Source of the DNA: Halobacteriales archaeon
GTDB taxonomy: Archaea > Halobacteriota > Halobacteria > Halorutilales > JAHENH01
Assembly (NCBI GenBank): GCA_018609935.1
Contig: JAHENH010000082.1
Coordinates: 1 to 61,229, forward strand
DNA length: 61,229 nt
Direction of reading: 5' to 3'
The notes under the pieces were generated by a model, which saw nothing but the letters and a program-made list of their open reading frames with translations, had not been told where the DNA came from and ran no database searches. Of this stretch, positions 1 through 9,000 are shown piece by piece. The position numbers and the translations under genes were made by a program. Position 1 is the first letter of the stretch; each line of letters starts with the position of its first letter.

Positions 1-288
1 ACCAGCCTTCAAAGCCCCAAACCAAGCAAACACATGATCCTCACAATTAGGCAACATCATAGTCACAACATCACCCTTCTCAACACCAATACCAATTAAC
101 GCATTAGCAAACTCATTCGCCTTCCGATTTACTTCACTAAATGTGTAGAGTTTGTTGTCTTCAAATTGGAAAAAGTCCTCGTCACCATTTTTGTTGGCTT
201 GTTCTTCTAGGACTTTCGGTAGTACCCACCCACCCATCTCTTTTTCTAGTTCTCGATAATCTATATCCCAATAGCTCTCCTCAACCAT
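1..288 (-). CDS. AMP-dependent acyl-CoA synthetase, N-terminal part (runs off window)
   Basis: The minus strand encodes 96 residues from an ATG at 286-288 to the window edge with no stop. The N-terminus (MVEESYWDIDYRELEKEMGG) followed by DFFQFEDNKLYTFSEVNRKA and GIGVEKGDVVTMMLPNCED matches the first domain of ANL-family acyl/acetyl-CoA synthetases, where the T(F/Y)xE(L/V)xxxxNxxAN motif opens the fold. Such enzymes activate a carboxylic acid with ATP and CoA in the cytoplasm. The AMP-binding and catalytic motifs lie outside the window, so substrate class cannot be judged. The acyl-CoA genes at 4.5-9 kb are plausible partners, which is inference. Confidence 0.85.
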   Translation of the reverse strand, partial: MVEESYWDIDYRELEKEMGGWVLPKVLEEQANKNGDEDFFQFEDNKLYTFSEVNRKANEFANALIGIGVEKGDVVTMMLPNCEDHVFAWFGALKAG

Positions 289-4478: not shown

Positions 4479-4880
4479 CTAGCTAGTTGGTTCGAATTTA
4501 GGTAAGGCGAGGTCATCATTTATGTCTTCGAAGGTAACTTCTACAGACATTCCTATTTCTACATCTTCTGGATCTATAGATACTATGTTTGTTAAAACTC
4601 TTGCTCCTTCTTTTAGATCAACAGATGCTACAGTATATGGAACATCATCTTCGAATCCCTCTGGTGCATTTTCAGTTATTGTGTATGAATATATTTCTCC
4701 TTCACCACTTACTTCTTTCCATTCCAGGTCATAGTTCATACAGTTTATACATACTCCTCGTGGATAGTATGTATATGTGTCACATTCGTTACAATATTGT
4801 AGCACCAACTTATGCTCGTTTGTTGCCTCCCAAAATTCTTCGGTTAGACTTGTAGGTTCAGGTATTGGTTTTTCAGACAT
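4479..4880 (-). CDS. DUF35 zinc-ribbon/OB-fold protein, partner of thiolase-like enzyme
   Basis: This 133-residue protein has a complete rubredoxin-like zinc ribbon (C30-x2-C33, C44-x2-C47) followed by an OB-fold (EVSGEGEIYSYT then VDLKEGARVLTNIV). That is the standard DUF35 arrangement. DUF35 proteins bind CoA and bridge acyl-CoA enzymes: in methanogens they join thiolase and HMG-CoA synthase, and in actinobacteria the DUF35 part of ChsH2 is required by the aldolase Ltp2. The gene begins 2 bp after the thiolase-like gene, so the two are co-translated partners. Its active partner is most likely that neighbour. Confidence 0.9.
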   Translation of the reverse strand: MSEKPIPEPTSLTEEFWEATNEHKLVLQYCNECDTYTYYPRGVCINCMNYDLEWKEVSGEGEIYSYTITENAPEGFEDDVPYTVASVDLKEGARVLTNIVSIDPEDVEIGMSVEVTFEDINDDLALPKFEPTS

Positions 4881-4882
4881 TT

Positions 4883-6040
4883 TTATACCTCTAGTATAGA
4901 TGTTATATTAGAATGCCAATTTCTTGCCATAAGGACTACTCCTATCCCAGTTATTAAAGCGTTTTCTACATTGTCTACTTGTCTTTTTCCTGCTTCCCCT
5001 CTAAGTTGTCGTAGGCTTTCAACTAGGTTTATCATACCACTAGACAGTCCTGGTTGTCCTGTAGATAGTTGTCCACCCCCTGTATTTAAAGGTAGGTCTC
5101 CGTTTATTGAGAAATCTGTTTCATCGATATATTCTGCTAGGTTTTCCCTTGTGGTGAAACCGTTATCGGCTAGTTGTAGTGCTACTGCTGATGTAAAGTC
5201 GTCATAGGGTTGGAATGAATCTATATCTTCAGGAGTTAATCCTGCCTCATTATATGCTTGTTTTGATGTTTTTTGAAAACCAGATTTTGTTACATCTGGT
5301 GTTGGATCGGATCCATTATGGTTGTGGTATTCTCCTGATCCTGAAAGATAAACAGGTGTGTCTGTTATGGTTTCAGCGTTTTCACCTGTTGTAACTATTA
5401 CAGCTGCTCCACCATCGCAGAACATTACACTATCAAGTAGTTTTACAGGATCTGAAACCATTGTGCTGTTTAGATAATCATCCATTTCCATGTCATCTGT
5501 CAATAGGGCTTTTGAGTTCATTTGGGCGTGTTTTCTTTGTGTCATTGCTAATTTCCCAAGGTGTTCATCAGTTATTCCAAGTTCTTCATCTATCTTATTT
5601 TGGAATAGTCCAAAAAGACCTGGTGGACCTTGAGGACCATACGGTTCTTCAAATTGATTTCTGTATCCTTTATATTCTGTGTTCCATTGTGTAGTTGGTG
5701 CGTCAGCACCCAATACCATAACTGTTTCAGCTCGTCCTGATTTTATAGCTTCTGCAGCTCTAAGTACTCCTCCTAGAGCTGAAGCCCCACCTATATCTAT
5801 CTGTGTAAGCCATTCTGGAGATAATGCTATTGATTCATTAACTCTTGGAGACCAGAACGGTTCATTTGCTCCTGAGAATGAACAGAGTACTGCTAGTCCA
5901 TCAATATCCTCTTTTTCTATTCCTGTTTCCTCTACGACCCCTGAAGCAGCTTCTCCTGCTATTTCATATACATCTCTCCCACTTCTCCTCTCTAGTTCGG
6001 TTTCATAATAACCAGCTATTGCTATTTCTTCATCTGCCAT
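4883..6040 (-). CDS. Thiolase-fold acyl-CoA enzyme lacking the nucleophilic cysteine
   Basis: This 385-residue protein has the two-half thiolase fold. Where canonical thiolases carry the nucleophilic Cys (about residue 85-90) this protein reads IDIGGASALGG. The GHPxG histidine motif is TGQPG near residue 330, inside NTGGGQLSTGQPG, and the C-terminal CxG loop reads ALITGIGVV. NTxGGxLS followed by an RQLRG segment is typical of the non-thiolytic Ltp/SCP2-type branch, which works with a DUF35 partner. In that branch Ltp2 performs retro-aldol cleavage of a beta-hydroxyacyl-CoA. A thiolase annotation by homology would therefore be misleading. The DUF35 gene follows 2 bp downstream and enoyl-CoA hydratase lies 83 bp upstream. 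The exact reaction is inferred. Confidence 0.85.
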   Translation of the reverse strand: MADEEIAIAGYYETELERRSGRDVYEIAGEAASGVVEETGIEKEDIDGLAVLCSFSGANEPFWSPRVNESIALSPEWLTQIDIGGASALGGVLRAAEAIKSGRAETVMVLGADAPTTQWNTEYKGYRNQFEEPYGPQGPPGLFGLFQNKIDEELGITDEHLGKLAMTQRKHAQMNSKALLTDDMEMDDYLNSTMVSDPVKLLDSVMFCDGGAAVIVTTGENAETITDTPVYLSGSGEYHNHNGSDPTPDVTKSGFQKTSKQAYNEAGLTPEDIDSFQPYDDFTSAVALQLADNGFTTRENLAEYIDETDFSINGDLPLNTGGGQLSTGQPGLSSGMINLVESLRQLRGEAGKRQVDNVENALITGIGVVLMARNWHSNITSILEV

Positions 6041-6123
6041 TTTGTCTCTCTATATTATTTTTCCCTGTTATTGAGAGTTCGGAAATCTTTCTATTTTTAT
6101 TTTTTTTTCTGATTTTGTACATC

Positions 6124-6921
6124 TTATTTACCTTTAAAGTCAGGTTCTCTGTCTTCTCTAAATGCTGAAAGTCCTTCTTCTCTATCTTCAGTGAAATATT
6201 GTAGGAAGCTTAGGTCATCTTCATATTCTAGTGCTTTCTCTATGCTTATGTCTTCTCCCCTATCTATTGCAAGTTTCGATGACATTACGCTTATTGGTGC
6301 ATTATTTGCTATTTGCTCTGCTAGTGATGTAGCTTCATCTATTAGTTCATCTGTGGCTACAAGCTTGTTTATTAGTCCATATTCACTCATTTCTTCTGCA
6401 CTATATCGGTTTCCTGTGAATATCATTTCTTTTGCCTTTCTTTTCGGTATAGATCTTGGTAATCTCTGGGTACCTCCTGCACCGGGGACTCCACCTAGAC
6501 CTGCTTCAGGAAATCCGAACTGCGCATCTTCAGATGCTACTATTAAGTCACATGCAAGTGCTAGTTCAAATCCTCCTCCTAGTGCGTATCCGTTGACTGC
6601 TGCTATTGTTGGTGTAAGTGTTTTTTCTACTTCTCTATCTATCTGGTATACTTCAAGTGTTCTTTTTCTCCTTCGCTGGAATTCAAATTCTTCTTCCATT
6701 AATTCTTCGAATTCTCCTACATCTATTCCTGCTGAGAACCCTTTTCCTTCTCCAGTGAATATCAATGCCCTAAGGTCATAGTCCTTGTTTACTTCATTTA
6801 TAACATCTAAAACTTCCTGGGCTGTAGTGTTTCGAATTGTGTTAGCCTTATCTGGTCTATCTATGGTAATTATTCCTATATCCCCACGTTCCTCAAATTG
6901 TATATCTTCGTAATCTGCCAT
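6124..6921 (-). CDS. Enoyl-CoA hydratase/isomerase family protein
   Basis: This 265-residue crotonase-fold protein has SAGIDVGEF (oxyanion-hole region), NGYALGGGFELALACD with the first catalytic Glu, and FPEAGLGGVPGAGGTQRLPR with the second catalytic Glu, so hydratase activity is plausible. The C-terminal helices end in FREDREPDFKGK, as usual for short-chain enoyl-CoA hydratases. It hydrates trans-2-enoyl-CoA to 3-hydroxyacyl-CoA. It is first in an apparent unit with the thiolase-like and DUF35 genes, with an 83 bp gap. The product is the expected substrate class for a retro-aldolase or for a dehydrogenase; no 3-hydroxyacyl-CoA dehydrogenase is visible in the window. Confidence 0.92.
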   Translation of the reverse strand: MADYEDIQFEERGDIGIITIDRPDKANTIRNTTAQEVLDVINEVNKDYDLRALIFTGEGKGFSAGIDVGEFEELMEEEFEFQRRRKRTLEVYQIDREVEKTLTPTIAAVNGYALGGGFELALACDLIVASEDAQFGFPEAGLGGVPGAGGTQRLPRSIPKRKAKEMIFTGNRYSAEEMSEYGLINKLVATDELIDEATSLAEQIANNAPISVMSSKLAIDRGEDISIEKALEYEDDLSFLQYFTEDREEGLSAFREDREPDFKGK

Positions 6922-7118: not shown

Positions 7119-7532
7119 TTATACAAATCCAACTCTTTGAGCGAAATCTACATATCCTTTTTCGGCCAATGTTTCTTCATCTGCGTATGGCTCTAATGTA
7201 ATGTCTTCGTTGCTAACCATTTCTTCATATATGTCTAGTAGTTCTTCTTCTGAGTCGGCTTTCTCAAATTCATCAACAACATTTTCATCATTATAATGAA
7301 GTTTAAAGTCTGCTGGAAGATCATCTGGTGCTTCACCTACTTTCGCATCCCAATCCCCAAGATCTTCTCTCATAAATGTAACAGTATCTAGATCCCCATG
7401 CACATCTCTATGTTGGTCTACCTCAAAACATGCATCTGGACCCCATTGATCTAAAATTCCAGCTCCAGGACCCGCTCCCCAAACATCTACAATTCTTTCA
7501 ATTAATTCTTCCTCGTCTGATACAGGAGACAT
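7119..7532 (-). CDS. Acidic protein of unknown function (137 aa)
   Basis: I do not recognise this protein. It is strongly acidic, starts with an amphipathic helix (EEELIERIVDVWGAGPGAG), has an unusual WGAGPGAGILDQWGPD stretch with two tryptophans flanking glycines, one cysteine (DACFEVDQH) and a predicted helical region (EELLDIYEEMVS). It has no signal peptide and no membrane segment. It stands alone between AT-rich gaps, with a TnpB-type relic on its upstream side. The amino-acid use is consistent with a real halophile-type gene rather than chance. Confidence 0.7.
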   Translation of the reverse strand: MSPVSDEEELIERIVDVWGAGPGAGILDQWGPDACFEVDQHRDVHGDLDTVTFMREDLGDWDAKVGEAPDDLPADFKLHYNDENVVDEFEKADSEEELLDIYEEMVSNEDITLEPYADEETLAEKGYVDFAQRVGFV

Positions 7533-7857: not shown

Positions 7858-9000
7858 ATGGATTTTGAGCTTTCGAGTGAGCAAAGACAAACTAAAGAGA
7901 TGATATCAGAGTTTGTTGATAATGAAATTGCTTCAAAGGCTAAAGAGATAGATGAAAAAGACATGTTTCCTACTGAATTAATTAGAAAAATGGGAGATCT
8001 GGGTTTGATGGGTATGCCATTTCCTGAAAAATATAATGGATCTGGGCTAGATTATCATTCATATATAATTGGGGTAGAAGAGATAAGTCGAGGTAGTGGA
8101 GGTGTAGGAACTATAGTAGCAGCTCATACTAGTCTTGCATCCAATATGGTTTTTAGATATGGAGATGAAAAACAAAAAAAGAAGTATTTAACATCATTAA
8201 GTACTGGAGAAGAGATAGGTGCTTTTGCTCTATCAGAGGAAGGTGCTGGAAGTGATGTATTATCTATGGGTACAACAGCAAAAAAGGATGGAAACGAATA
8301 TATTATAAATGGAGATAAATTATGGATTTCAAATGGAAATATAGCAGACACAATAATAGTATTTGCAAAGACAGATCCCGAAAAAAATAAAAAGGGTATA
8401 TCATCTTTTATAATAAGACCAGAAAAAGATAATGGGTTTAAAATAGAAGGAACAGAAGACAAATTGGGGGATAGAGGGTGTCCAACAGCTGAACTAACAT
8501 TCAAAAATGTAAAGATACCTGAAAAAAGAAGATTAGGAAAGGAAGGAGATGGGTTTATTCAAGCCCTAGAAACACTTAATACTGGACGAATAAGTATAGC
8601 AGCACGTAGTATAGGGATAGCAAAAGCAGCCCTACAAGACTCTATTAAATATGCTAAACAAAGAGAACAATTCGATAGACCTATATCAAAGTTTCAAGCT
8701 ATACAACATAAATTAGCGGACATGGATACAAAACTACAGGCAGCAAAGGCATTAACTCATAAAGCAGCAGATAAAAAAATAAATGGTGAAGGATTTAGGA
8801 AAGAATCGGCACAAGCTAAACTATATGCAAGTGAGATATCTCGGGAAGTCTCAAACCAAGCTATACAGATTCATGGAGGATATGGTTATGTTAAAGGTTT
8901 TAATGTAGAACGTTATTTTAGAGATTCAAAAATAAATGAAATTTATGAGGGGACAAGTGAAATAATGAGAAACACAATAGCAAAAAAAATATTAGAGTAA
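7858..9000 (+). CDS. Acyl-CoA dehydrogenase
   Basis: This 380-residue FAD enzyme has the family signature GAFALSEEGAGSD (FAD/substrate loop), YIINGDKLWISNG, and the C-terminal QIHGGYGYVKGFNVERYFRD. The catalytic Glu sits in IYEGTSEIMR near residue 367. It oxidises acyl-CoA to trans-2-enoyl-CoA and passes electrons to ETF, whose genes are not in the window. A purine-rich GGGAG lies about 14 bp before the ATG. It is monocistronic, plus strand, facing away from the enoyl-CoA hydratase unit but probably part of the same route. Short- to medium-chain or branched-chain substrates cannot be told apart. Confidence 0.95.
   Translation: MDFELSSEQRQTKEMISEFVDNEIASKAKEIDEKDMFPTELIRKMGDLGLMGMPFPEKYNGSGLDYHSYIIGVEEISRGSGGVGTIVAAHTSLASNMVFRYGDEKQKKKYLTSLSTGEEIGAFALSEEGAGSDVLSMGTTAKKDGNEYIINGDKLWISNGNIADTIIVFAKTDPEKNKKGISSFIIRPEKDNGFKIEGTEDKLGDRGCPTAELTFKNVKIPEKRRLGKEGDGFIQALETLNTGRISIAARSIGIAKAALQDSIKYAKQREQFDRPISKFQAIQHKLADMDTKLQAAKALTHKAADKKINGEGFRKESAQAKLYASEISREVSNQAIQIHGGYGYVKGFNVERYFRDSKINEIYEGTSEIMRNTIAKKILE

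Follow-up and report, generated by a model that had tools for sequence, protein, structure and literature searches.

Thiolase-fold aldolases that work together with a DUF35 partner are already known. Ltp2 of Thermomonospora curvata, solved with the DUF35 domain of ChsH2 (6OK1), and Sal of Comamonas testosteroni (CtSal), solved with Shy (9MYR), are steroid aldolases, the latter acting on bile-acid side chains, while IpfD and IpfE take part in the degradation of ibuprofen. For these three DUF35-paired proteins, which lack the thiolase Cys and carry a YDxF motif, aldol cleavage is supported enzymatically or genetically. Here, we describe a comparable set of genes in contig JAHENH010000082.1 of a Halobacteriales archaeon, analysed over its full 61,229 nt (hereafter, the window). 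The minus strand encodes, in order of transcription, a crotonase-fold enoyl-CoA (coenzyme A) hydratase (ECH; 6124..6921; Pfam ECH_1, 5.6e-62), a thiolase-like protein of 385 amino acids (4883..6040; Pfam Thiolase_C_1) and a DUF35 protein with a zinc ribbon and an OB fold (4479..4880; Pfam zf-ChsH2 and OB_ChsH2_C). The gaps are 83 bp and 2 bp, so open reading frames (ORFs) and Pfam agree with the layout given in the initial annotation. We propose, with a probability of about 0.7, that the three genes form a hydration and aldol-cleavage unit, which would convert 3-hydroxyacyl-CoA into acyl-CoA and an aldehyde or ketone. The YDDF residue set of the thiolase-like protein, a candidate acyl-CoA aldolase, would then be a variant of the Ltp2 and Sal theme.

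The thiolase-like protein belongs to the thiolase superfamily, as its match to Thiolase_C_1 (PF22691; 135.1 bits, 1.9e-39) far exceeds the cut-off of 28 bits; none of the 25 NCBIfam models shown (of 26 matches) scored above its cut-off. The catalytic residues of an SCP2-type thiolase are missing. Alignment with the P. furiosus thiolase 7YVY places Gly85 (codon 5786..5788; Gly89 in CtSal) at the nucleophilic Cys, Tyr279 at the His of HDxF and Gln329 (codon 5054..5056) at the His of GHP; the Gly and Gln had been read correctly from the sequence beforehand. Only two Cys are present, C53 and C208, and neither aligns with the nucleophile site, which rules out an alternative catalytic Cys; an intact active-site Cys, named in the initial annotation as counter-evidence, was thus sought and not found. 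C208 lies within a CDG stretch that is common to 7YVY. Meanwhile, the absence of a C-terminal CxG Cys proved not to be diagnostic in this family, since the second catalytic Cys of SCP2-type thiolases sits in HDCF, at the position of Asp281, according to PMC12329534. The Y279-D280-D281-F282 motif (5195..5206) aligns with the catalytic motif of Ltp2 (Y294DHF) and Sal (Y302DCY), where true thiolases carry HD (HDAF in 7YVY). Equivalents of these motif residues were mutated in PMC12329534. A Cys-independent thiolase or Claisen-type acyltransferase, in which Asp281 would act as base and CoA would attack a 3-ketoacyl-CoA directly, is improbable for a protein that has no Cys at or beside the nucleophile site and in which both thiolase His are replaced.

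The closest solved fold for the predicted model of the protein is Sal. Both share the fold, the Gly at the Cys site, the motif Tyr, a DUF35 partner and a hydratase for the preceding step, and Tyr302, Gln347 and Gln352 of Sal correspond to Y279, Q324 (codon 5069..5071) and Q329. In contrast, the essential Cys304 of Sal is replaced by Asp281, and Shy combines DUF35 and MaoC in one chain and has a Cys3His zinc site, whereas the window encodes a stand-alone C4 DUF35 protein and a crotonase-fold hydratase. Sal shares about 28% identity with the window protein and does not fall into one clade with the YDDF proteins. Ltp2 also shares the fold, the motif Tyr, the Gly at the Cys site and a C4 zinc-ribbon DUF35 partner, but its YDHF motif has His in place of Asp. 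Its second catalytic residue, Tyr344, corresponds to Gln329 (aligned through CtSal Gln352, as given in PMC12329534), the loop differs in length, identity is about 29%, and no MaoC-family gene was found among the flanking window ORFs scanned. Orthology to Ltp2 is ruled out by the missing equivalent of Tyr344. The initial annotation had taken Ltp2 as the close equivalent and had suggested looking for its active-site Tyr residues: the motif Tyr is there, the second is not. Judged by the aligned residues, the protein is Sal-like with Asp for Cys304, and Sal would be the better template.

On the ibuprofen plasmid pIBU218, a Thiolase_C_1 protein without the Cys adjoins an OB-fold gene, an AMP-binding gene and ring-dioxygenase genes, and by gene order we take it to be IpfD. 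The IpfD-IpfE step is described as a retro-aldolase reaction that releases propionyl-CoA (among PMC11321319, PMC9195938 and PMC11892951). IpfD resembles the window protein in lacking the Cys, in its YDxF motif and in its OB-fold partner; it differs in carrying YDAF, in lacking the GQ loop and in acting after a ring dioxygenase instead of a hydratase, and the two are 30% identical. The putative thiolase 4U4E of Sphaerobacter thermophilus and its relatives also combine YDxF with a missing Cys, but carry YDSF, Gly for Gln324 and His for Gln329 (Gln in one relative, L111). We know of no activity for this group. DUF35-partnered proteins that are named thiolases have the same fold and match the window protein more weakly, at 63 and 84 bits versus 134-173 bits for 6OK1, 9MYR and 4U4E.

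A protein search returned 2344 matches at E<=0.001 among 7998 scored. In the best 120 listed, which include the window protein, span 381 to 391 amino acids and reach down to 46% identity, G84, G85, YDDF, Q324 and Q329 are each kept in 120 of 120 rows, which indicates that the residue losses are not due to chance. This conservation bears on the idea of a catalytically dead protein that serves the hydratase as a scaffold or as a lipid-binding partner: the thiolase residues are indeed lost, but a new polar set (Y279, D280, D281, Q324 and Q329) is invariant, unlike a decaying site, and we regard a dead protein as very improbable. A scan of species genomes found 327 stretches encoding a relative, of which the best 80 loci were kept. 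The full signature occurs in 81 proteins across these loci, at least one per locus; five further, more distant ORFs do not have it.

A quick tree was built from 80 rows by maximum likelihood; the placement of its root and of its long branches, CtSal and TcLtp2 among them, is uncertain. In this tree, 63 Cys-less YDxF rows separate from 17 others with a Shimodaira-Hasegawa-like approximate likelihood ratio (SH-aLRT) of 99. Inside the 63, a clade of 48 unites the YDD(F/Y) rows (SH-aLRT 99), and CtSal lies outside the YDDF clade. The window protein groups (99) in a clade of six with a Ferroglobus metagenome-assembled genome (MAG; L001), a protein labelled Nitrososphaeria archaeon (P0004) and three unlabelled metagenome proteins. 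The smaller side of the split holds 13 HD rows and four Cys-less rows that bear a Tyr (YDPF, YAPF twice and YGPF).

Gene neighbourhoods of the 80 loci were counted by tblastn, as ORF calling overlooked genes where the G+C content is high and labelled the query itself at 78/80 loci. A DUF35 match lies within 600 nt of the YDDF gene in all 80 loci, and an ECH match in 43. Across 44 sets, distances correlate at 0.90 between YDDF and DUF35 and at 0.53 between YDDF and ECH; therefore, DUF35 appears to be the faithful partner, expected to bind stably, and the hydratase more exchangeable. The best solved relatives of the window DUF35 protein are Shy and the DUF35 of ChsH2. It has a C4 zinc-site pattern, C30-x2-C33-x10-C44-x2-C47 (4740..4793, minus strand), and all four Cys are kept in only 5 of 81 rows, namely the window, the Ferroglobus MAG, one Myxococcales and two Chloroflexi (L001, L002, L003, L005 and the window); in the remaining 76 rows, between two and four are missing. 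The window hydratase contains E119 and E139, which we take to be the catalytic Glu pair; among 44 adjacent ECHs, one member of the pair is conserved in 40 and the other in 41.

Within 4 kb, AMP-ligases were found in 58 of the 80 loci, acyl-CoA dehydrogenases (ACADs) in 36, ABC permeases in 31, UbiD in 15, aldehyde dehydrogenases (ALDHs) in 14 and short-chain dehydrogenases/reductases (SDRs) in 12. Meanwhile, 3HCDH-type 3-hydroxyacyl-CoA dehydrogenase (HADH) had no tblastn match within 4 kb in any of the 80 loci, nor within 6 kb in the 59 whose flanks both extend for 6 kb or more; two loci have one within 9.5 kb. The queries were 13 HADH-only pieces of the 3HCDH family, which excludes the ECH domains of FadB-type proteins. 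For comparison, eight of these genomes served as a control, in which HADH lay within 4.5 kb of 20 out of 59 strong Thiolase_C matches; these loci are not independent, weak matches were dropped (59/89 Thiolase_C and 48/81 HADH used), and distances run from start to start, in place of the gaps used for the 80 loci. The scarcity of HADH fits a route of hydration followed by cleavage without oxidation, with SDRs possibly replacing HADH at some loci, and it speaks further against the thiolase alternative. Thus, retro-aldol cleavage is favoured over thiolysis, as the initial annotation had suggested, because proven retro-aldolases share the motif Tyr, the replacement of Cys by Gly, a DUF35 partner and a hydratase, and because no 3HCDH-type HADH was found within 4 kb.

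Individual loci add to this picture. The Ferroglobus MAG carries ALDH, ECH, YDDF and DUF35 genes on one strand, and its ALDH keeps the Cys that aligns with that of a solved ALDH, presumably the catalytic one. At two loci from Chloroflexi and one from Myxococcales, an ALDH gene lies just upstream on the other strand, and a YDDY locus (G278) encodes a thioesterase, a DUF35-like gene (by reading), the YDDY protein, an AMP-ligase and an ALDH. On the 2,4-D plasmids pJP4 and that of C. oxalaticus X32, a set of AMP-ligase (acyl-CoA synthetase), YDDF and OB-fold genes directly follows tfdA (L131 10454-13604; L134 6454-9607).

We propose the following mechanism. The hydratase, given its family and conserved Glu, would add water to a 2-enoyl-CoA. 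The resulting 3-hydroxyacyl-CoA would be bound by a thiolase-fold dimer flanked by two DUF35 chains, as in the CtSal and TcLtp2 complexes. Tyr279 and Asp281 are probably the catalytic pair: Tyr279 would take the proton of the 3-hydroxyl, cleavage between C2 and C3 would follow, and the enolate may be protonated by Asp281, which Gln324 and Gln329 would hold in place. The branched substrates mentioned in the initial annotation would be a guess. The expected products are acetyl- or propionyl-CoA and an aldehyde or ketone, and neither a 3-hydroxyacyl-CoA dehydrogenase nor a nucleophilic Cys nor attack by CoASH would be needed.

Several points weigh against this assignment. In CtSal, replacing Cys304 by Ala, Ser or His abolishes activity (PMC12329534), so Asp281 may mean other chemistry. 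The oxyanion-hole residues Q161 and G391 of CtSal align with P139 and V368 (with a Gly adjoining the latter), Y165 with F143, and the CoA-contacting R216 with T193. The Gln329 loop is modelled at low confidence (pLDDT 47), and in the structural comparison proposed beforehand, true thiolases score nearly as well as Sal. Position 86, adjoining the nucleophile site, is Ala in the window protein but Cys (GGC) in 67 of the 120 listed rows. The group is not marked by the absence of Cys and His alone, because four Cys-less rows fall among HD thiolases. An ECH match within 600 nt is missing in 37/80 loci. ALDH (two queries) lies within 9.5 kb in only 22/80, and three ALDH queries gave no tblastn match in the window. 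SDR genes occur within 9.5 kb in 26/80 and could provide 3-hydroxyacyl dehydrogenase activity, although these counts do not distinguish them from unrelated SDRs. Full-text literature searches, with subscription papers mostly outside their reach, returned no report of a YDDF enzyme and zero matches for YDDF with thiolase. To our knowledge, no YDDF protein has been assayed.

An alternative is another Cys-independent reaction of CoA esters, such as malonyl-type decarboxylation, retro-Claisen hydrolysis or biosynthetic aldol condensation. Asp is unusual as the third motif residue, aldol reactions are reversible, and genes for UbiD-family proteins, thiamine pyrophosphate (TPP) enzymes and Rieske oxygenase near some relatives point to varied chemistry. 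A substrate did not emerge from these varied neighbourhoods, which also include NMT1-type transporters. PMC12329534 describes TbSLP (YDCF) as a slow malonyl-CoA decarboxylase but reports no such activity for CtSal. Since ligase, ACAD and hydratase together suggest a catabolic route with a 3-hydroxyacyl-CoA as its end point, we consider this alternative unlikely, though less so than thiolysis, and favour retro-aldol cleavage.

The unit belongs to a large, mainly bacterial clade with scattered archaeal members. By title, 79 of the 80 kept loci are bacterial, and the clade is mainly proteobacterial; an archaeal-specific family is therefore ruled out, and the specifically archaeal pathway of the initial annotation is not supported. 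Archaeal members of the YDDF clade are rare: among 392 sampled genomes of the phylum of the Ferroglobus MAG, 25 match at E<=1e-40, only the MAG itself has a close copy (67%), and three have YDDY relatives of 35-37% identity. The contig of the MAG looks truly archaeal, given a ParA-type ATPase gene and a Cdc6-type gene close to the cassette (L001 7208-9635), and may be a plasmid or integrated element. The same contig (L001 10157-13678) encodes a second Cys-less thiolase-like protein (GGG, YDPF), with an acyl-CoA dehydrogenase and two DUF35 genes as neighbours. In seven of the sampled phylum genomes there are also nine proteins related to 4U4E that lack the Cys and carry YDSF (L105-L108, L111, L112, L116, L126 and L127).

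If the assignment is right, clade proteins named thiolase or acetyl-CoA acetyltransferase would release aldehydes or ketones, in place of acyl-CoA by thiolysis. Pathway reconstructions would change for acid-degrading bacteria and archaea, and Ltp2/Sal chemistry, assayed on steroids, would extend to further substrates. Relatives labelled 'thiolase' in databases may thus be misnamed. More tentatively, and at somewhat less than even odds, the YDDF clade could represent a distinct Tyr-Asp chemotype of thiolase-fold acyl-CoA aldolase. Together with a crotonase-type hydratase, ACADs, a ligase and at times an ALDH, it would then break down non-steroid acids by an 'aldolytic beta-oxidation' that is widespread, reaching across Proteobacteria, Chloroflexota and Myxococcota into a few archaea, and that naming as 'thiolase' has concealed.

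The ACAD and acyl-CoA synthetase said in the initial annotation to lie close by are present, but the former (7858..9000) is on the plus strand, and the latter is a 96-residue N-terminal fragment cut off at the left edge (1..288, minus strand; AMP-binding, 5.5e-16). A VWA-domain gene and an AAA-ATPase gene lie between this fragment and the cassette, a distance of about 4.2 kb. It is possible that this ACAD performs the upstream step for the cassette. An acidic protein of 137 amino acids (7119-7532), upstream of the hydratase, has no Pfam or NCBIfam match. The window also encodes an Rpb3-type RNA polymerase subunit, archaeal-type CCA enzyme domains mevalonate-pathway genes and an enolase, which we take as archaeal markers, and the contig accordingly looks archaeal. 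The enolase suggests a deep lineage near the Halobacteria: among its 120 listed matches, the nearest come from MAGs titled 'Halobacteria archaeon' (up to 55%), and those of Halorutilales and Archaeoglobus reach about 51%.
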